IMG/VR virus record: IMGVR_UViG_3300021438_000027
Span: 1-41,065 of that record
DNA from: a virus
DNA length: 41,065 nt
Direction: 5' to 3' (one strand)
In this document: in pieces, positions 3,621 to 40,481 of the stretch
Layout of the letters: every line of letters starts with the position of its first letter
Position numbering within the stretch: the stretch's first letter is position 1
Position numbers and translations under genes: made by a program
The notes under the pieces: model-generated
What the model was told of the DNA's origin: nothing
What the model saw: the letters and a program-made list of their open reading frames with translations, nothing else
The model's database searches: none

Positions 3621-4645
3621 GCTGATAATTGCTCTATAATAGTTGCGTAATCTAAAAATGGGGTATGTTTTTCGATATGACGGACATTCTTATAACCAAT
3701 CTCGTTAGCATCTTTGCCCAATTCAGAATAGGTACTCAAATCGAGCACCTTTACTTTTTTACCTACTGACATGAACCTGTCAGCCATAATCAACGCATGT
3801 TTGAAGTAGGTAAGTCCTTGATTGTCGTAACCAATATCCGGGATTAGCACGAACTTACTGGCTGACGATTTTACGTACTTTTTAAATTGGATAGTGTCCA
3901 AGTTCCAACCAAGTGTGGCAGTTCCTTGTTCACCCATAGTTTCAGCATCAGCCCAACCCTCGGTTATGTACAACTTATCCTGAGTTAGTAGAGCATCTTC
4001 ATTGTAGATGATTCCAGTCTTACCAACACCTAAACTGCTAGGTGGATTCTTGTATCGTAGTTCATTGCCTACAAAATCTCTACCAATGTAATAAACCGTA
4101 GAACCTAAAGCGGTGAACGGAACAATTATGTAACCAGTGAAGTTATTGTCGAAAAATTCTTTGTAGTCTTTAAACGAGGACTTATCAGGCGATTTGAAGC
4201 AATAACCGAAGCCTTTGGCATGTAGCTTAGCTACATCGAATCCACGCGATTCTAGGCGGTGTATGGCTTGTTCTCCGAGACTTTTACCTCTGCCGTCTAA
4301 TAGGGGTCTGAATGAGTAGGGCATAGACAGTTCGTGTGTGGAACTAATGTCAATCAGTTCGTAATCAACATCACTAGCTTTTATCTCAATCTCAGTTTCT
4401 TCATAGTTTTGAAGCAGTTTTCTTGCTTCCCACTCATTGATACCTTCCATCTCGACAACAAAGTCAGAGATAAGCCCCGAAGCACCACATGACCAACAAC
4501 TGAATTTAAACCAAAAAGGGTTAAATGTCATTTTCTTATCCTTACCACAAAAGGGGCACTCCATAGAGTACCACCCTTTAGGTGACGGATTGCTTAGGTC
4601 ATACCTATCCGCAAAATAACTATATATGCGTTTAGGTGAAATCAC
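3617..4645 (-). CDS. DNA primase, DnaG-type (zinc finger plus TOPRIM)
   Basis: This 342-residue protein starts with a CHC2-like zinc finger, with cysteines at about 30, 33, 50 and 53 (ECPFCGKDKK then CWSCG). A TOPRIM catalytic core follows, with the acidic motif YITEGWADA (Glu near 229) and the metal-binding stretch PDIGYDNQG (about 269-277). It makes RNA primers on the lagging strand for the replicative helicase encoded just upstream. It is shorter than bacterial DnaG and lacks a separate helicase-interaction domain, which is common in phage primases. Start and stop overlap the neighbouring genes by four bases on both sides. Confidence 0.88.
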   Translation of the reverse strand: MISPKRIYSYFADRYDLSNPSPKGWYSMECPFCGKDKKMTFNPFWFKFSCWSCGASGLISDFVVEMEGINEWEARKLLQNYEETEIEIKASDVDYELIDISSTHELSMPYSFRPLLDGRGKSLGEQAIHRLESRGFDVAKLHAKGFGYCFKSPDKSSFKDYKEFFDNNFTGYIIVPFTALGSTVYYIGRDFVGNELRYKNPPSSLGVGKTGIIYNEDALLTQDKLYITEGWADAETMGEQGTATLGWNLDTIQFKKYVKSSASKFVLIPDIGYDNQGLTYFKHALIMADRFMSVGKKVKVLDLSTYSELGKDANEIGYKNVRHIEKHTPFLDYATIIEQLSA

Positions 4646-4911
4646 TTTCCGTTGTTTTTTCTTTGATACTGCCTATTCAATAATATTGCTACTATCTGAA
4701 CTAACACACCTACCCAACTCATCATTGTTAGAATAAGGAGTAACAGCACGTCTCTGTCAAATAATATAGGGGTAGATTTGTCCGAATAAGCATATTCATT
4801 ATCGTCAGAGGTAATACTCATGTACAAAAAAGGAATACCTAACGAAACTAACATTCCGGCTAAGTAAACACATGCACCCCATTGGTGCAGAAATGTCGAT
4901 AATTGACTCAT
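4642..4911 (-). CDS. small two-TM membrane protein
   Basis: This 89-residue protein has two hydrophobic segments, about residues 12-31 (CVYLAGMLVSLGIPFLYM) and 55-77 (LLLLILTMMSWVGVLVQIVAI). They are joined by an acidic loop and followed by a basic tail RQYQRKNNGK. By the positive-inside rule the C-terminus is probably cytoplasmic. It is embedded in the replication operon between the DnaB-like helicase and the primase, overlapping the latter by ATGA. Possible roles include anchoring replication at the membrane, superinfection exclusion or a holin-like function. The two-segment layout alone does not separate these, and no endolysin gene is next to it. Confidence 0.7.
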   Translation of the reverse strand: MSQLSTFLHQWGACVYLAGMLVSLGIPFLYMSITSDDNEYAYSDKSTPILFDRDVLLLLILTMMSWVGVLVQIVAILLNRQYQRKNNGK

Positions 4912-4929
4912 ATAATTTAGTTTTAATGA

Positions 4930-6375
4930 TTATTCGTCTCGTAATTTTTTCTTGGAGTTAAGGTCGTATTTGTGCTTTTTACTGTCGTTAGCGTACATAG
5001 CATCAAATGACTCTAAATACGCATCAGGTTCAAGTTCTTTTATTATGTGCCTATCAGCATCAATGTTCAAGCAGATAGTAGTGGCGGCAGTAGTATCGTA
5101 AGCCTTACCTGAGCGTTGGAAAGCCGAAACTATTCTGCCAGTTTTATCACGTTTCTCTTCGGCAGTACGGCATAATATCCAACTAGAATGGCAGTTGAAT
5201 GCCTGACTAAAGTCATTGGCAAACGCTGATTTAATGTTCACTACTTTGGCTTCTACTGCTTCTTTGGCAACAGGTATCGGGGTGAATGCAAATGTCCCAT
5301 ACTTCCTATTAAGTGCAATAGCGTGATGATAAACATCTTTGTTTTTCTCGATGAAGTTTCCACGATTCTTAGGATTAACTGATTCAAACAATTGAAGGTA
5401 ATCATACAGGATTACCTTTGGAGCAAATTCGGGGTGTGTCTTCATTGTGAGTGCCAATTCTGCATCAACATCTGCGAGGGTCGATTTCCTACCTTCAAAC
5501 ATTCGAACAACAATATCGCCTGCACCTTTACCAGTCTGTGAATGATTCAGGTATGGGCTAGAATTGAACTGTCTGATGGATTCGTATATTTTACTCAGCA
5601 AGGCTGAATTAGCACCGATTTGATGGAAGTAACAACCCAATAGCATCTGCTTAATCCTATCACGAAGTTCACCTTCACCGTTTTCAGCATCAGCAATAAA
5701 CACATCAATTCCGCGCTTTATGTACCCTACGCAAATATGGAGTAGAATACCGGTCTTGAAGTCTTTAGGTGCTCCACACAATCCAACTAATTCAGGTGAC
5801 AGATAACCCCTCTTATTAAGTTGAGCATTAAGCCCCTGAATATTGGTCTCATACCCGGTAACTACTTTGCTTGAATAACCAACATCGTTAGATGCTAACA
5901 TCGGACCGGTGCGGCTGTGCATATATCCTGAATCATTTACAGCACTCATGAGTTCTTGGTCAGCCAAAAACCATTTAGTGAAATCTTCATCAGAGGCTTC
6001 GTTCAGTTGCTTGGCACGTTCAATGTACCGCTTCTTAAACGCCACTTTAAGTACATACTCCTTGATAGTGTCCTTCACAAAGTTAGAAGGTTTCTCAAAG
6101 GGCATGTACAAAGTCTTTATCGTAATAGTCAGTTCCGATATAGTGTCTTGCGCAATTACCTGTCGCTGTTTTGATAAAATACGTTGCAGATATTGAAGCA
6201 TTTCAGCCTTGGTAGGCTGCTGCCCATACTTTCTGCGATACTTTACCAACAGTTCATGGATAGTCGAAAAAATAGGATTCTCGAATATAGCAGAATCGCT
6301 AAGTCTTAGTAAGTCACTGTCGTCATGATAATGGATAAAGTATTTCAGTATTAATTCCTGAAATTGTAAATCCAT
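4930..6375 (-). CDS. DnaB-like replicative helicase
   Basis: This 481-residue protein combines an N-terminal helical domain (about 1-150) with a RecA-type motor domain. The motor shows a P-loop-like element GAPKDFKTG at about 201-209 and a Walker B-like strand VILYDYLQLFESVN. These two match the order and surroundings of the DnaB family, in which the second reads IDYLQL. The usual glycine before the catalytic lysine is replaced by phenylalanine, yet Lys and Thr are kept. A later stretch FNCHSSWILCRTAEEKRDKTG could correspond to the DnaB arginine-finger region. It unwinds the fork ahead of replication and would partner the primase encoded downstream. The ATG overlaps the stop of the preceding gene by one base. 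Confidence 0.82.
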   Translation of the reverse strand: MDLQFQELILKYFIHYHDDSDLLRLSDSAIFENPIFSTIHELLVKYRRKYGQQPTKAEMLQYLQRILSKQRQVIAQDTISELTITIKTLYMPFEKPSNFVKDTIKEYVLKVAFKKRYIERAKQLNEASDEDFTKWFLADQELMSAVNDSGYMHSRTGPMLASNDVGYSSKVVTGYETNIQGLNAQLNKRGYLSPELVGLCGAPKDFKTGILLHICVGYIKRGIDVFIADAENGEGELRDRIKQMLLGCYFHQIGANSALLSKIYESIRQFNSSPYLNHSQTGKGAGDIVVRMFEGRKSTLADVDAELALTMKTHPEFAPKVILYDYLQLFESVNPKNRGNFIEKNKDVYHHAIALNRKYGTFAFTPIPVAKEAVEAKVVNIKSAFANDFSQAFNCHSSWILCRTAEEKRDKTGRIVSAFQRSGKAYDTTAATTICLNIDADRHIIKELEPDAYLESFDAMYANDSKKHKYDLNSKKKLRDE

Positions 6376-33527: not shown

Positions 33528-34181
33528 TTATTTTCGCAAATATATTCTCTGAACAGACATTGGACTGAACTGTTTACCGGTAGATGTCGTAAATCCTGTG
33601 TTATTGAGTTGTTCGGCAGCGGCTTTGTAACTCATACCCGGAATCAGGGTATCAATCATGGCTTTTGCCCTCTTATTATTCAGATTTTCAGCCGCTTTAC
33701 GCCTGTTTGATTCGTAAGCCTTCTCTCTAGCAGACTCGGTAAGGTTCTGTGGATTACCTAGTTTGATACCTTGCTTTTTCTTTTCTGCCAAAGCCGCTTT
33801 TGTGCGCGAACTAATCAGTTCTCGCTCTTCTTGTGCGATTATAGCCAAGATACCTATGGTCAGATTGTTTGCATTGGGGGTCTCGCAACAGACAAATTTG
33901 ACATCACTATCCTTCAACTGGTAGATAAACGACACGTTGCGACTTAACCGGTCTAATTTGGCTATAATAAGCGTTGCATCGTTCTTTTTGGCATCAGCTA
34001 TGGCTAAAGTGAGTTGAGGTCTGTTGTTATTTGCACCTGATTCTATGTCTGTATAAGACGAAATAACTTCGCCCCCTGATTTAGAGACGAAGTTATTTAT
34101 TACTGACTTTTGTGCTTCAAGTCCTAAGCCTGATTCACCTTGTTCTTTGGTTGATACCCTACAGTATGTTACGTATTTCAT
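33528..34181 (-). CDS. small serine recombinase (resolvase/invertase type)
   Basis: This 217-residue protein has the resolvase catalytic domain. The nucleophile is Ser10 in YCRVSTKEQGESGLGLEAQ, and arginines lie in AKLDRLSRN (about 75-82). A long helix with AIIAQEERELISSRTKAALA follows. The C-terminal 60 residues form a helix-turn-helix-like DNA-binding part (MSYKAAAEQLNNTGFTTSTG, SPMSVQRIYLRK). It lacks the large C-terminal recombinase domain of integrase-type serine recombinases, so it is the small invertase/resolvase class. It sits at the boundary of structural genes and the accessory zone. It may invert a segment, resolve multimers or integrate the phage. No crossover sites were found for certain. 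Confidence 0.88.
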   Translation of the reverse strand: MKYVTYCRVSTKEQGESGLGLEAQKSVINNFVSKSGGEVISSYTDIESGANNNRPQLTLAIADAKKNDATLIIAKLDRLSRNVSFIYQLKDSDVKFVCCETPNANNLTIGILAIIAQEERELISSRTKAALAEKKKQGIKLGNPQNLTESAREKAYESNRRKAAENLNNKRAKAMIDTLIPGMSYKAAAEQLNNTGFTTSTGKQFSPMSVQRIYLRK

Positions 34182-34243: not shown

Positions 34244-34555
34244 CTAGAAAAGACCGAATGATTCAAAATAGTTGACCACATCAGCCACAAATAAGTAGTG
34301 CGTGACATTTTTTACCTCATAACCGAAGTCACCGATACAGGAAACAGACTTATCATCAGCTAGATGAAGCGAACCTTGCAGAATAGTCCTGACCGGAGTA
34401 GTGGCATCTACCACAAAAACCAGACAATTGGGCAAATTATCAGGGTCAACTGCCCTCAGAGGTGTCATTGATGGAACACCCATACCTAAAAGCATAGAAG
34501 CCCTAACCCAAGCAGAGTCCGCATCGGTGAAACCACCGCCGCCTGAACCTGACAT
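34244..34555 (-). CDS. small unknown protein, Gly-rich start
   Basis: This 103-residue protein begins with MSGSGGGGFTDADSAWVRAS and ends in THYLFVADVVNYFESFGLF. The middle contains VDPDNLPNCLVFVVDATTPV, which could be a beta strand followed by a loop. I do not recognise the family. It lies between the glycosylase and the recombinase in the accessory zone, with 17 bases to the upstream stop. A Gly-rich N-terminus followed by FTDADSAWVRAS may suit a small virion component, but evidence is thin. Confidence 0.65.
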   Translation of the reverse strand: MSGSGGGGFTDADSAWVRASMLLGMGVPSMTPLRAVDPDNLPNCLVFVVDATTPVRTILQGSLHLADDKSVSCIGDFGYEVKNVTHYLFVADVVNYFESFGLF

Positions 34556-34572: not shown

Positions 34573-35409
34573 TTAAGGATATAAAGTTTTCAGTGCCAAT
34601 TTAGTGTTTTTTTTCATGAAATTCCAAATAATTGCGTCCATGTTTGCCGCCTGTACGTCAATTGCTTTACAAAACTCAAGGTATTGTTTTTCTAACTTGA
34701 GATAATCCGATAAAATATCACTCTCAAAGAAACCAGTCAATTTACCAGCTCTGAGGATATGAATATCCAGAATTGCAACATTATTGCTGTGAAGCCAATT
34801 CCTTGTCACCCAGGACGCTGTTTTCAACCCAATACCATCCACGGATAATAGCCAGTTTCTCAGAAGTATGTCGTTGAATTCAGGAATACAATCAAGATCA
34901 TTTCTGCAAAGGAACCTGTGTATGTATTTGCTTTTCTGATTATAAAATCTATAACTTACTTTCTTGCCCCCTTCAAACTCAAATGGAGAAGAAAGTGCAT
35001 CTAAAATATCCTGAAAATTAGCTTTGGTAGAGATTATTCCCCTTTCTTTGAGTCTATCAAAAGCTATTATGCCCATCTCAGATGGAATACCATAACCGCC
35101 TAGAATACACATAATAATTTCCTCTATAATATTGGAGGCAAGTTTGTGAGACGTTTCCTGTGATGCGCATTCCGATAATTTATATTGTAGCTTCCAAAAA
35201 GCAGGAGTGTATAGTTGCGTAAAGTGCCCCCATTTTATGCCAGGTAGCGCATCCTCATTAACATTCGGGAAATCGTCAATAATTAGCTCTATCGTCCGCC
35301 AAAATTCGGCCTCTTCCCGGTCTGGTACACAAGCATTGTCATTCTCTCTATCTGTGCTGAATAAAGGTAATTGACCTTTCGGCGTTTTCTTAATTATTGC
35401 TTTACCCAT
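34573..35409 (-). CDS. OGG-type DNA glycosylase (HhH-GPD)
   Basis: This 278-residue protein has a helix-hairpin-helix plus Asp signature near the C-terminus. SVDGIGLKTASW (about 189-200) carries the presumed catalytic lysine K196, and NVAILDIHILRAG (210-222) the catalytic aspartate D215. Lys in GIGxK together with the Asp is the pattern of bifunctional OGG-type glycosylase/AP lyases, and the hairpin resembles archaeal Ogg proteins. Such enzymes flip out a modified base, cut the glycosidic bond and nick the strand. The substrate here is unknown; a role against modified phage or host DNA is a possibility only. The start overlaps the upstream RHH-like gene by 16 bases, so the two are coupled. 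Confidence 0.78.
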   Translation of the reverse strand: MGKAIIKKTPKGQLPLFSTDRENDNACVPDREEAEFWRTIELIIDDFPNVNEDALPGIKWGHFTQLYTPAFWKLQYKLSECASQETSHKLASNIIEEIIMCILGGYGIPSEMGIIAFDRLKERGIISTKANFQDILDALSSPFEFEGGKKVSYRFYNQKSKYIHRFLCRNDLDCIPEFNDILLRNWLLSVDGIGLKTASWVTRNWLHSNNVAILDIHILRAGKLTGFFESDILSDYLKLEKQYLEFCKAIDVQAANMDAIIWNFMKKNTKLALKTLYP

Positions 35410-35639
35410 TTCGGTATCTTTTTATTAGGATTTCTTTTCTTCCATTCAGTGATATAGACCTCCAACGCTTCATTGACCAAATCTTTCAGAAATGCACGGT
35501 CAAACGATGATATGCAGTCTAGCTCATAAATTGTTTCATCTTTAACTATGAACGTCACTCGATTGTATCCTTCTTTCAACCCTCTTTTTGTAGACGGTAC
35601 GCTTTCAGATACACCTGCGTTTCGGGATGACTTAGCCAT
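35394..35639 (-). CDS. ribbon-helix-helix-like DNA-binding protein
   Basis: This 81-residue protein has a basic, probably flexible N-terminus (MAKSSRNAGVSESVPSTKRG). Residues about 25-68 then resemble a ribbon-helix-helix fold: a strand NRVTFIVKD, a helix ETIYELDCISSFD, and a helix FLKDLVNEALEVYITEWKKR. RHH proteins bind operators as dimers and include antitoxins and autoregulators. It overlaps the glycosylase gene start, and upstream is a 14-bp inverted repeat spanning its promoter region. An autoregulated two-gene operon is therefore likely. RHH is inferred from the pattern, not from a database match. Confidence 0.65.
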   Translation of the reverse strand: MAKSSRNAGVSESVPSTKRGLKEGYNRVTFIVKDETIYELDCISSFDRAFLKDLVNEALEVYITEWKKRNPNKKIPKWVKQ

Positions 35640-35645
35640 GCGTTG

Positions 35646-35653
35646 CGAAAATA
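35646..35653 (-). promoter_or_regulatory. -7-like element TATTTTCG before RHH-like gene
   Basis: TATTTTCG has one mismatch to TAnnTTTG and lies six bases upstream of the ATG at 35639. It is four bases from the nearer arm of the 14-bp inverted repeat, so a protein bound there would block this promoter. Confidence 0.45.
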
Positions 35654-35656
35654 GTG

Positions 35657-35720
35657 TGTAAACATTATTAAAACAAATAAAGACACACCTAAATCTTTAT
35701 GTTTAGTAATAATGTTTACA
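35657..35720. repeat. perfect 14-bp inverted repeat (possible operator)
   Basis: TGTAAACATTATTA at 35657-35670 is exactly repeated in inverse at 35707-35720, with a 36-base spacer. It lies directly upstream of the RHH-like/glycosylase operon. A regulator binding both arms and looping is plausible; a recombination site is the alternative. The remaining stretch to 35789 shows nothing else I can name. Confidence 0.75.
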
Positions 35721-35789
35721 ATTTTGAAATTGCATTTGTCCCTTGAGTTGGCGAACGAACCTGCAAATAATTCTGATAATAATTGGCAT

Positions 35790-35815
35790 AAAAAAACCAG
35801 CCGTTACACGACTGG
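35790..35815 (-). terminator. terminator upstream of the glycosylase unit
   Basis: On the minus strand CCAGTCG, a 5-base loop, then CGGCTGG (one G-U pair) is followed by seven T. It lies 21 bases past the stop of the gene remnant at 35836 and insulates the glycosylase unit from upstream transcription. Confidence 0.7.
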
Positions 35816-35835
35816 CCTTTCAAACGAATTAATTG

Positions 35836-37328: not shown

Positions 37329-38261
37329 CTACCTAGTAATTAAATTGCCATATTTTAACCTCACCCCGCCAAACATTTTCATAGTATCTTCAAATCTATG
37401 TGCTTGTTGTGCTTTACGTGTATTATAACGGTGTGCGCATTCGTTCGCATAGGATTGCATGTGCTTTCTGCTGATATTATGATAAACGCCAATTACCATA
37501 CGGTCAAAGTGGCTAAATGCACCCTCAACAGTATTAGTGTGTGCAATACCTCTAACATATTCGTTTATGCGATGGTCAACAGTAAGGTGGTCAGCATATT
37601 CTCTACCAACTCTTTCATAAGTAGCAGCCGTGTCAGTCATTAAAACACTTTCAGTATCAACGTGCATTCTCACTAAATCAGGTTCGTTTTCTGTACTGTC
37701 TTTTACATCAAAACGAATATCGCCACCACGTTCAACATAAGCTGTAACTGTAGTTTTATTAGCCATTGCAGCGTTTCTATCCCCTTTGAATGATTTACGT
37801 TTTTTGTTGCTCATTCCTTTTACTTTACCACCTACAATTGTAGTATCAGTTTCAACTATTACACCATTACCACCTAATTGTTCTGTAAATTGAATATTGA
37901 ATGCTTCTCTAATCCTATGCAATAAAAACCAAGCACTTGATTGGTGTATCCCGAGGTCACGACTTAACTGTAAAGAACTAACACCCTTTTTATGATTAAC
38001 ACAAAGGAATATAGCTGCAAACCATGTACGTAATGGCATTTTTGTATTTTCAAAAATAGACCCTGTAATTGCGCTAAATTTCTTTTGGCACTCAATATTG
38101 CGGCACTTATAACCCCTGTTTGTTTTATATGGATTTTCAGCCTTACAATGAGGACATGCAACATTACCATTCCATCTAACCTGCTCCCAATAGGCAACAC
38201 AAGTAGGTTCGTCTTTAAAAACGTCAAATAACTGCGGTAATGTTTTAAACTGTGCGAACAT
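37329..38261 (-). CDS. IS1595-family (ISXO2-like) transposase
   Basis: This 310-residue protein has an N-terminal zinc ribbon with cysteines 36, 39, 53 and 58 (ACPHCKAEN and YKCRNIECQKKFS). A conserved IS1595 stretch SSLQLSRDLGIHQSSAWFLL follows, which includes a helix-turn-helix. The catalytic domain shows VIVETDTTIVGGK (Asp 139), VLMTDTAATYE (Asp 210) and HTNTVEGAFSHFDR (acidic Glu 256 with Asn 253). It cuts and joins the element ends. Length and motifs indicate an intact enzyme. It has its own TATCTTTG box 20 bases upstream. Confidence 0.92.
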   Translation of the reverse strand: MFAQFKTLPQLFDVFKDEPTCVAYWEQVRWNGNVACPHCKAENPYKTNRGYKCRNIECQKKFSAITGSIFENTKMPLRTWFAAIFLCVNHKKGVSSLQLSRDLGIHQSSAWFLLHRIREAFNIQFTEQLGGNGVIVETDTTIVGGKVKGMSNKKRKSFKGDRNAAMANKTTVTAYVERGGDIRFDVKDSTENEPDLVRMHVDTESVLMTDTAATYERVGREYADHLTVDHRINEYVRGIAHTNTVEGAFSHFDRMVIGVYHNISRKHMQSYANECAHRYNTRKAQQAHRFEDTMKMFGGVRLKYGNLITR

Positions 38262-38330: not shown

Positions 38331-38432
38331 TTATTTAAATCCCAAATACCCGATAGTTACCATAACTTTGATGGCTTCGTAAGTATTATCCTTGCCACCG
38401 TAATGTTTAGGATTATTTACTTGGTCGGACAT
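38331..38432 (-). pseudogene. DUF3310-type gene truncated by the IS
   Basis: From an ATG at 38432, inside the 3' end of thyX, the frame reads MSDQVNNPKHYGGKDNTYEA followed by IKVM, the classic start of DUF3310 phage proteins (consensus VNxPKHYGG...YExIKVIEAW). At 38361 it crosses into the IS right end and continues through nine residues of IS sequence to a TAA at 38331-38333, giving only 33 residues. The remaining DUF3310 core (often LGNAVKYISRAGKK) is missing on the other side of the element. The product is almost certainly non-functional. Confidence 0.82.
38339..38361 (-). repeat. right terminal inverted repeat of IS
   Basis: Read inward on the minus strand: GGTAACTATCGG then GTATTTGGGAT. 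It matches the left end in the first twelve bases and in TTGGGAT. Confidence 0.82.
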
Positions 38433-39457
38433 GTGGCAAGGGCTTTATGGTCACTCAAATAACGGTCACTTGCAAATCCGCGTAGGTTGTAGCAGAAATC
38501 ACCGTTGTCAGTACATTCAGCAGCGTGTTCTCTAGGAGATGCGTGCTTATCAGCAACAAGGCGGTCATACAATCCATAATCTTTCGGGTAATCATCGCCA
38601 CCTTCGAAGTTGTTGTAAGAAGTACGAGCACACCTAGCACCGCATATTTTGAGTACAAGCTGCTGATATGTTGTAGATAGGTCATCAAACGTATCACCAG
38701 TTAATCGTGGTGCCATAGTTGCCACTAATGCATCTCTGTCGATATTGTCACCAAAAGGTAAATGCCATTCACCCGGTTGCAGTACTTTAGGAGTAGACTC
38801 ATTACGAGCGTCCCACATTGCTTCAGCAAGTGCCATCATGTGAATCTCCGCTTTTCCTTTGTTAATGTTGAGCCAGTCAAGTTCAGACATGCTATCGTAA
38901 GACGATTTAAATTCGTCACTTTCTACTTTAGCAACGAAAGACAGTAAATCCTTCCTAGACTTAAAAGTAACCGGAACTTGCTCATAAAATATTCCGTACT
39001 GAGGACATCTCAAATCGAAGAAGTTATCGAACTCAGTAGCAGTAACCAGTACTTTATGCCACATAAACGGTTCAAGCAGACGGTTGCAGATTTGTTTGGT
39101 AACATCGCAGGTATGGTTCAGGTATTTGGCAGAAGCAACAGCATTAGATGCTGCGTATCCCCATTCACTCTCTAAAGCCTCAATATCTTTAGCGTTAGTT
39201 ACATACTCAGTTCCCTGCATACCGGAATGGTCTTTCTGCCAAGCAATAGGAATGAATGGGTCTGTTTCAACCATTTTAACCATCTTGTCAAATGGAATAG
39301 CCCTTGAACTGGCTGAGTTCCGGGAAAACATCCTGTGAGTTAAAAACTCAGGTAAAATAAATCTAGGCATTGTTATTACCATTGATGTAATCCTACTACC
39401 ACAGATAGGATTGACTGAATCGGCAACTACCTGTGCCGATATTTTGTTTTTACTCAT
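38417..39457 (-). CDS. thyX: flavin-dependent thymidylate synthase
   Basis: This 346-residue protein has the ThyX signature in the form THRMFSRNSASSRAIPFDKM (His 41 to Arg 52), a phage-type variant in which Thr replaces the first Arg of RHRxxSxNxxSxR. C-terminal parts ARTSYNNFEGGDDYPKD, DKHASPREHAAECTDN and LRGFASDRYLSD complete the substrate and FAD site. It methylates dUMP to dTMP using FAD, NADPH and methylene-tetrahydrofolate, supplying thymidylate during infection. It is longer than typical bacterial ThyX (about 210-250), which is usual for phage versions. Its 3' end contains the start of the truncated DUF3310-type gene. Confidence 0.92.
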   Translation of the reverse strand: MSKNKISAQVVADSVNPICGSRITSMVITMPRFILPEFLTHRMFSRNSASSRAIPFDKMVKMVETDPFIPIAWQKDHSGMQGTEYVTNAKDIEALESEWGYAASNAVASAKYLNHTCDVTKQICNRLLEPFMWHKVLVTATEFDNFFDLRCPQYGIFYEQVPVTFKSRKDLLSFVAKVESDEFKSSYDSMSELDWLNINKGKAEIHMMALAEAMWDARNESTPKVLQPGEWHLPFGDNIDRDALVATMAPRLTGDTFDDLSTTYQQLVLKICGARCARTSYNNFEGGDDYPKDYGLYDRLVADKHASPREHAAECTDNGDFCYNLRGFASDRYLSDHKALATCPTK

Positions 39458-39673: not shown

Positions 39674-40050
39674 AAAGACTGTTTTTGTTGGTTAATAAAT
39701 GAAATTACTTCTTGGAATTTATCTTCAGGCATTTGAACTAAGTCCATGAAAACCTCGTCAATGTCTTTGTAGCGTTCACTCGTCATTTCACCCTTCATAT
39801 CAGTAAAGGTCTGTAAATGTCCTTTATCTTTAACTACCATGTGGATATTATTCAGCATAACTTGGATAGACCTTTCAATGCCGATTATATCCACCCTGAT
39901 ATCGTAGAACTTCTTTACCTTTTCTTGTTTTGCTGCTGCCGCAACTCTCTTAACTGAATCAGATGTTCTTACATCTAAGAGGGTGTATCTGTATAACCCT
40001 GTGAGCAACATAAGTCTTTGTAGTGCCCCTGCGAAATTATCTGAAATCAT
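39670..40050 (-). CDS. unknown 126-residue helical protein
   Basis: The start at 40050 is chosen because ATGA there overlaps the upstream stop (40047-40049); the longer frame opens nine codons earlier. The product is helical and charged, beginning MISDNFAGALQRLMLLTGLY. It contains a coiled-coil-like central part (IGIERSIQVMLNNIHMVVKD) and a C-terminal helix EDKFQEVISFINQQKQ. I recognise no family. It lies in a cluster of small early genes next to thyX. Confidence 0.7.
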   Translation of the reverse strand: MISDNFAGALQRLMLLTGLYRYTLLDVRTSDSVKRVAAAAKQEKVKKFYDIRVDIIGIERSIQVMLNNIHMVVKDKGHLQTFTDMKGEMTSERYKDIDEVFMDLVQMPEDKFQEVISFINQQKQSL

Positions 40051-40481
40051 ACGTCTAGGAATTGAATGTCCAAACATTGGAAAAAACCTGGTGTACCGTC
40101 TAAATTTTCTATGATAGCGTACGGAATACCGTCAGTAAGCATAAATTGGTGAAAAAAGCAAATTTCTCCCGTATTTGAAGCCTTACAAGGTCTTAAACCT
40201 TTTGGGTGTACAGGAATTGTAGGCTTTTGTAGTTCAAGCGTATAGAACTTGGACTCCTTGTTATTGACCATTATATTCCTTACAAACGGGTCTAGGTCAG
40301 TAGGTTTATCTAGGTTGCCACTGAATGACTTATTTCTCTCATCCTTGACAATACCGTCCGAATCTAAGTAGAGATATTCACTGCTTCCCCAACCAGTGCT
40401 ATACAATTTCCTACCGTCTTTAAGGGCTTTTAGCACCTCTTCTTTAGTTGTTAGTACAAATCCTTTTGGTTCTGTGTCCAT
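40047..40481 (-). CDS. unknown 144-residue phage protein
   Basis: The N-terminus TTKEEVLKALKDGRKLYSTG and the strand pair SSEYLYLDSDGIVKDE suggest an alpha/beta protein of a type often found in phage early regions. A second motif, FFHQFMLTDGIPYAIIEN, occurs near the C-terminus. No catalytic residues are evident. It is followed by the next gene through an ATGA overlap and preceded by 21 bases from the 135-residue gene. Confidence 0.7.
   Translation of the reverse strand: MDTEPKGFVLTTKEEVLKALKDGRKLYSTGWGSSEYLYLDSDGIVKDERNKSFSGNLDKPTDLDPFVRNIMVNNKESKFYTLELQKPTIPVHPKGLRPCKASNTGEICFFHQFMLTDGIPYAIIENLDGTPGFFQCLDIQFLDV

Follow-up and report, generated by a model that had tools for sequence, protein, structure and literature searches.

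In type IV CBASS, the QueC homologue Cap9 couples a deazaguanine to the glycine at the N-terminus of a partner protein that begins MGGS, according to excerpts of two reports (PMC11996544, PMC13279940), and in Qat the partner protein, QatB, has an essential MGTS start (PMC13279940, same excerpt). A further group, QueC family cluster 4, is defined in the available portion of PMC13329287 by the zinc signature CHx5CxxCxGCxK and a PfkB-deoxyribosyltransferase neighbour, with a role in purine salvage being proposed; the main text of that paper mentions neither OGG nor DNA glycosylase nor 8-oxoguanine. Among DNA glycosylases, Ogg2 enzymes discriminate 8-oxoG from G via a strictly conserved C-terminal lysine, and a C-terminally truncated Ogg2 shows no 8-oxoG cleavage and keeps its lyase activity (extracts of PMC3397491), while the structural homologues of the Brig1 protein are uracil-DNA glycosylases, and a mainly monofunctional activity has been proposed (extract of PMC11078745). 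Here we describe a unit in a viral stretch of 41,065 nucleotides (IMG/VR record IMGVR_UViG_3300021438_000027, analysed at full length and called the window below) that links an orphan glycosylase of a phage with a widespread cassette whose QueC was recently assigned to purine salvage.

The features of the unit are collected in Table 1. Its 81-aa and 278-aa ORFs, both on the minus strand, overlap by 16 bases, as a previous sequence-only reading of this DNA had stated, and before the pair stands the perfect 14-bp inverted repeat that had also been pointed out, with arms at 35657-35670 and 35707-35720. These arms sit within a 27-nt pair that is 85% complementary, and the gapped operator pattern (nine bases per arm) has one match in the window and none in 100 shuffles; another match, in the contig L114, fell inside a gene and was judged to be chance. 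The terminator described as insulating the unit was recovered as a terminator-like hairpin. The hairpin, at about 35818-35790 (-), was absent from the output of a simple terminator scan, and the 61-nt stretch 35770-35830 folds with a z-score of -3.6, with 0/200 shuffles as stable.

Table 1 Features of the phage unit, with positions in the window
Feature	Position	Strand	Basis
Intrinsic-terminator-like hairpin and T run, between upstream gene and operator	35790..35818	-	Fold test
Operator, inverted repeat with perfect 14-bp arms TGTAAACATTATTA / TAATAATGTTTACA	35657..35720	.	Repeat search
RHH-like putative autoregulator, 81 aa	35394..35639	-	ORF; 64% identity to L020 counterpart
HhH-GPD (Ogg2-like) DNA glycosylase/lyase, 278 aa	34573..35409	-	PF22175 match; predicted structure
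QLPLF, glycosylase residues 13-17, sliding-clamp-binding-like motif	35359..35373	-	Motif scan
Catalytic Lys196 codon (HhH hairpin)	34822..34824	-	Residue present, family alignments
Catalytic Asp215 codon	34765..34767	-	Residue present, family alignments
103-aa ORF, MSGSGGGG start on unrelated body	34244..34555	-	Next gene after glycosylase
Codons 1-8 (MSGSGGGG) of 103-aa ORF	34532..34555	-	23/24 bases identical to start of L020 HIRAN gene

The first protein of the unit had been called RHH-like. This assignment is plausible but weak on sequence grounds: the 81-aa protein has no Pfam, NCBIfam or PHROG match above cut-off, its RHH alignment retrieved only unrelated molecules at E 0.07 or worse from PDB sequences, and a 30% match (E 7e-4) was found to a protein adjoining a ParA-like gene. 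For neither this protein nor the 103-aa protein did the viral contigs and phages searched hold a credible relative, and no near-identical phage DNA was found for window positions 17500-41065. The codon log-odds of the glycosylase and regulator genes, about -0.007, lie below those of five of the six other nearby minus-strand ORFs tested (range -0.04 to 0.31), and these low values may mean recent acquisition. An IS1595-family transposase gene lies near the module in an accessory region (37329-38261 (-), 160.6 bits against a cut-off of 75). The phage further carries a gene for a ThyX-like protein (38417-39457 (-)) that scores just below the Pfam cut-off (24.3 against 24.8 bits) and also below that of NCBIfam, and a weak Tad2-like domain (40047-40481 (-); PF11195, 21.6 bits against a cut-off of 25, E 3.3e-4), making this last protein of the same phage a possible Thoeris anti-defence protein.

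The nearest relative of the unit lies on the contig of a Bacteroidota MAG (L020) and carries a whole cassette, in the order operator, regulator, glycosylase, HIRAN gene with an MSGSGGGG start, PfkB, QueC and nitroreductase. The glycosylases of the two loci are 58% identical, and 27 of the 28 positions in the operator arms are the same, compared with 19 of 36 between the arms. Against their L020 counterparts the glycosylase has pN 0.25 and pS 0.86 and the regulator pN 0.21 and pS 0.86, values that are averaged over both lineages and have pS near saturation. With arms, regulator and glycosylase all conserved between the two loci, the claim that the regulator and glycosylase form a real unit with its own operator, and with a defence-like ancestry, is supported. 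In 395 genomes from the phylum of L020 the small regulator occurs twice (one strong match, one at E 7e-4) and the glycosylase four times, the two genes being found together only in L020's own genome. The host of the phage is probably a member of the Bacteroidota.

We then compared the window with 98 further loci: nine plasmid loci, chosen from the 23 records matched in a tblastn search of plasmids with the glycosylase; nine viral loci; and the best 80 of 211 bacterial glycosylase relatives returned by an alignment scan of bacterial genomes. Around these homologues lies a cassette of five genes, encoding the glycosylase, an MSG-tagged HIRAN-fold protein (the small gene of the cassette), a PfkB-nucleoside deoxyribosyltransferase, a QueC-like ligase and a nitroreductase-like protein. 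The QueC-like and PfkB genes adjoin the glycosylase gene in eight of the nine plasmid loci, in seven of which tblastn also detected the small gene. In the bacterial set (best 80 of 211), both genes are present at 76 loci, the contigs of the other four breaking off after about 0.4-1.6 kb; the nitroreductase-like gene is present at 77 of the 80, the small gene at 73 and a gene for a D12-class methylase at 40. Wherever they were found across the 98 loci and the window, PfkB and QueC lie downstream of the glycosylase, and 87 of 89 QueC frames contain the zinc signature CHx5CxxCxGCxK. The cassette genes tested, from L002, L020 and L025, match QueC, PfkB with nucleoside deoxyribosyltransferase (NDT), D12 methylase and nitroreductase, the last with a Pfam match just under cut-off in L020 and weaker in L002, and none of them matches a CD-NTase or TGT; the one PfkB protein tested for fusion, that of L002, is joined to a nucleoside 2-deoxyribosyltransferase. 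In L022 a separate cyclase gene lies about 2.9 kb past the cassette. A VUT-family gene annotated with queuosine salvage near the QueC gene of one plasmid locus (L008:9657-10232) fits 7-deazaguanine chemistry.

The 278-aa protein itself matches Pfam PF22175 (Ogg-HhH) with 53.7 bits, against a cut-off of 27, and misses the curated cut-off of NCBIfam PRK01229 (70.8 bits vs 183). Both catalytic residues named in the sequence-only reading, K196 and D215, are present and do not vary in either of two family alignments, of 10 and 29 rows, and all 99 family members (the window protein and those of the 98 loci, with the bacterial part limited to the best 80 of 211 relatives) have the catalytic K and D motifs. 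An AF2 model of the window glycosylase (pLDDT 90.4) has as its best PDB match MjOgg (3knt_D, Z 14.4, rmsd 3.3 over 185 residues) and matches Thermotoga Ogg2 (3n0u_A) with Z 13.9; endonuclease III comes within 1 Z unit of Ogg2, and the fold match does not separate the two. The protein has the HhH-GPD fold and the catalytic Lys and Asp that mark members of Ogg2 / PF22175. The comparison with archaeal Ogg and Brig1 that had been suggested came out for one of its two partners, since the archaeal enzyme was matched and a Brig1-type fold was not: we rejected homology to Brig1, which is uracil-DNA-glycosylase-like, because the window model belongs with HhH-GPD, Ogg2-like enzymes, at Z up to 14.4. A weak relative (32.7%, covering 33% of the query; E 0.03) was seen at LR756508.1:95178-95483, in a 484-kb uncultured phage.

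Two features set the family apart. The C-terminal sensor lysine, sought nine residues after the pocket tryptophan, a spacing that we take to be that of MjOgg numbering, was found in 0/99 family proteins, all 99 of which extend at least 11 residues beyond that tryptophan. Judged from these sequences, ordinary 8-oxoG repair would be rejected as the sole function of the glycosylase, the sensor being absent across the family, and the predicted substrate of the glycosylase/lyase is a modified purine other than 8-oxoG; the base is probably of 7-deazaguanine type or another product of the base chemistry encoded in the cassette. The other feature is a short motif of the class that binds the beta clamp. 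The window protein carries it as QLPLF in its N-terminal tail, a low-confidence region of the model, and the L020 glycosylase has QLDLF, likewise in the N-terminal tail. In a set of 93 of the 99 members, made non-redundant on the last 60 residues, a clamp-like motif lies within the last 25 residues of 39 proteins (0.9 expected by shuffling), and a strict form of it in 26 (0.07 expected); 54 of the 93 are without even the broad C-terminal motif. The QLPLF motif may tether the phage glycosylase to the replication clamp.

A third gene of the unit had been overlooked in the earlier reading. This ORF (34555..34244 (-)) follows the glycosylase after 17 intergenic bases, compared with 16 before the HIRAN gene in L020, with six aligned positions matching between the two spacers. 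An HMM of the HIRAN family matched residues 1-11 of the 103-aa protein only, and no similarity was found beyond the tag. Among 272 ATG frames of at least 80 aa in the window it alone starts with M[STAG]G[SGT]3, and only in this frame does its codon use resemble that of the long genes of the phage. A search of the 395 genomes with the protein gave four weak hits (E 2e-4 to 7e-3); they lay in frames that were long or broken and were judged to be chance. The window thus keeps the cassette order of a glycosylase followed by an MSG-tagged gene, and we infer that the tagged protein may act as a decoy for a QueC-like enzyme of the host. Directly after the tagged ORF lies a gene for a small serine recombinase (33528-34181 (-); PF00239, PHROG DNA invertase), which occupies the place where relatives have PfkB and QueC and may mark a recombination edge.

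In the cassettes themselves, the small gene was recovered as 85 frames. All 59 frames that have a single candidate ATG ahead of the domain start with M[STAG]G (54 MSG, 3 MTG, 1 MGG and 1 MAG). When the ATG nearest the domain is taken in all 85, the starts are MSG in 73, MTG in 3, MGG in 1, MAG in 1 and other in 5, with no ATG in two; a separate count, made with a search rule that favoured MSG, gave 78/85 MSG. The two frames that have no ATG are those of L030 and of L020, which is partly masked and by eye reads MSGSGGGG. Two viral contigs have a small gene starting MGGSGG (L018 and, by eye, L104). The one family member modelled, from L025 (mean pLDDT 87.5), consists of a low-confidence glycine-rich tail followed by a beta domain with a HIRAN fold (3k2y_C, Z 12.4; also by Foldseek), and it superimposes on the HIRAN domain of HLTF (4xzg_H) with Z 9.7 and rmsd 2.5 over 86 residues; an alignment of the HIRAN proteins had no match up to E 5 among PDB sequences. 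HIRAN domains bind DNA ends. By analogy with the QueC partners described above, the MSG-tagged HIRAN protein would be the target of the cassette's QueC enzyme, and its M[STAG]G start points to a possible third QueC tagging system beside CBASS IV and Qat.

Genes of biological conflict occur near the cassette. Conflict-type genes (restriction endonuclease, anti-phage dGTPase, TIR, toxin, multiubiquitin/ThiF) are annotated near it in seven of the nine plasmid loci, L005 and L008 being the exceptions, and an Mrr-type endonuclease gene is present in 8/98 loci. Of ten flanking proteins selected by eye at five loci of Bacteroidota or Balneolota, six matched PADLOC models (CapP, CBASS cyclase, type II REase-like, CapP-like, type I specificity and DrmD-like helicase) and four did not. 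This is an association, observed with no control set, and not proof. Among the open-licence PMC papers listed in our literature search, no title or opening of an abstract described a cassette of OGG, QueC and PfkB-deoxyribosyltransferase or HIRAN, and as a unit the cassette is apparently undescribed.

The viral records hold the cassette genes both together and in parts. The IMG/VR loci L012, L015, L018, L019 and L104 have the glycosylase, PfkB, QueC and the small gene, and PfkB and QueC were found neither in L013, L016 and L017 nor in the window record, which gave no PF06508 match and no tblastn match with three proteins of each kind; this record, a linear one, may represent just a fragment, and QueC genes could lie beyond it. 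In L013, which has only 101 bases upstream, the glycosylase is followed by genes that look by eye like those for terminase and portal, and in L017, with 1.7 kb upstream, it is accompanied by a nitroreductase-like gene. Thus PfkB and QueC are missing from 4/9 assessable viral loci, compared with 0/76 bacterial loci (best 80 of 211; Fisher p 6e-5), or from 3/8 if the window is set aside (p 6e-4), in a comparison that leaves out L011 and L014, each on a contig that stops no more than 0.5 kb from the glycosylase gene, as well as four bacterial loci cut in a like manner, to which L104 was added later on the viral side, and which rests on a viral search with the glycosylase as query that favours glycosylase-only cases. 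One plasmid locus, L005, is likewise without PfkB and QueC on both sides. Its plasmid (NZ_CP047313, 389 kb, from P. putida; L005/L101) has the glycosylase outside any cassette, together with genes for a uracil-DNA glycosylase and a helicase, and might be a phage-plasmid. The five copies that lack PfkB and QueC do not form one clade: the glycosylase tree needs three changes, at least two of them forced by well-supported branches, and 130 of 500 label shuffles are as low as three, so that the tree supports nothing further. A reverse search with QueC gave seven loci, four of them already known with the glycosylase. In another, L116, no glycosylase was detected in the 4 kb upstream or the 7 kb downstream of a HIRAN-PfkB-QueC unit (4136-6258); L115 and L117 are similar, with their upstream sides cut. 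The L116 contig is provirus-like, and by eye the unit adjoins repressor-like and replication-like genes. Because viral records hold both the glycosylase part and the QueC part, the cassette is separable into the two.

Taken as a whole, our preferred reading is a tentative one, to which we give slightly less than an even chance: the window unit is a promoter-proximal piece of the cassette, carried by a phage for counter-defence. The phage would have taken a regulator, an operator, the glycosylase and an MSG-tagged protein from a mobile cassette. The RHH-like protein would repress its own operon at the 14-bp repeat, and QLPLF would tether the glycosylase/lyase to the replication clamp, so that a modified purine other than 8-oxoG could be excised at forks. 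In this way, in a host with the full cassette, the phage would rid its own DNA of that base, and the third, tagged protein might decoy the QueC-like enzyme of the host. Since it is the DNA-processing gene that the phage has retained, without the chemistry genes, we favour counter-defence over an attack on rivals, with low confidence, as the most likely role of its glycosylase. Such an attack, in which the glycosylase of a phage or prophage would act as an offensive moron that excises modified bases from the DNA of competing phages and so excludes superinfection, seems rather unlikely to us. It would agree with the presence of the machinery in viruses (glycosylase, PfkB, QueC and small gene in L012, L015, L018, L019 and L104; HIRAN-PfkB-QueC in L116) and with the defence genes near bacterial copies; against it, the search of the window found none of the genes that would produce or label a target, and surrounding phage genes, assessed by eye only, are few near the cassette in L018 and L019.

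A captured glycosylase put to plain base excision repair, or decay that has left only part of a former cassette, could likewise be imagined, given the PF22175 annotation, the truncation of the cassette in the window and the low codon log-odds of glycosylase and regulator that may indicate recent acquisition. The ORFs are intact, however, the catalytic residues are kept and the operator arms conserved; pN is well below pS against L020, in values averaged over both lineages and with pS near saturation; and the whole family examined lacks the 8-oxoG sensor lysine, and we therefore hold this account to be unlikely. Least probable by a long way is the toxin-antitoxin pair put forward in the sequence-only reading, with the glycosylase as a DNA-damaging toxin and the RHH-like protein as its antitoxin and repressor. 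Overlapping genes, a small DNA-binding-like first gene and an operator do give the locus this appearance, but the neighbourhood search found the pair in just one of the 98 other loci, L020; elsewhere the places near the regulator position are taken by HTH or DUF6088/AbiEi-like regulators, or by a DAM-type methylase, and the glycosylase usually sits in a QueC cassette that has no RHH-like partner. What had been read as a new two-gene combination is instead the front of a larger cassette, together with a third gene.

A bolder reading, which goes beyond counter-defence and which we think improbable at present, would make the cassette a third QueC-based immune system, which phages would counter by carrying only the glycosylase and, in the window, a decoy protein as well. 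The QueC-like enzyme would attach a deazaguanine to the N-terminus of the MSG-tagged HIRAN protein, which would sense DNA ends at forks; the PfkB-NDT would make a modified deoxynucleotide, and the clamp-tethered glycosylase would process the resulting base. The phage decoy would then display the same N-terminal tag on a foreign body. The grounds for seeing a conflict system in the cassette are the conserved N-terminal tag on a HIRAN-fold protein, glycosylases that have no sensor and often have clamp-like motifs, and the split viral copies. Were this right, the deazaguanylation of proteins would extend to one more kind of system, the third, and the conjugation of a nucleobase to a protein would be linked to DNA base excision.

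The unit and its cassette can be compared with several known systems. Like the Ogg2 enzymes MjOgg, SsOgg and TmOgg, the window glycosylase has the HhH-GPD fold and the catalytic Lys and Asp, and the base-pocket Asp and Trp (D258 and W262 in the window protein) are also common to both; unlike Ogg2, its family has no C-terminal Lys sensor (0/99) and has an extra N-terminal region, and the clamp-like motif of many members sets them further apart. With Brig1 it shares being a DNA glycosylase in phage conflict, although Brig1, as portrayed in the extract of PMC11078745, is uracil-DNA-glycosylase-like and does not have the HhH-GPD fold. The cassette's QueC resembles cluster 4 in the printed zinc signature (87/89) and the PfkB-NDT neighbour, and differs from it in reading YGQ(x)5E in our alignment where the available portion of PMC13329287 gives YGQ(x)6E; in the window itself no QueC was found. 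Measured against CBASS IV and Qat, as far as the excerpts describe them, the cassette genes tested include no CD-NTase, TGT or Qat gene, and the partner is HIRAN-fold; its start is MSG, rarely MGG, in place of MGGS or MGTS, and its exposed first residue would usually be Ser rather than Gly. What the cassette has in common with Cap9 of CBASS IV and QatC of Qat is a QueC-family enzyme and a partner with a conserved, flexible, glycine-bearing N-terminus.
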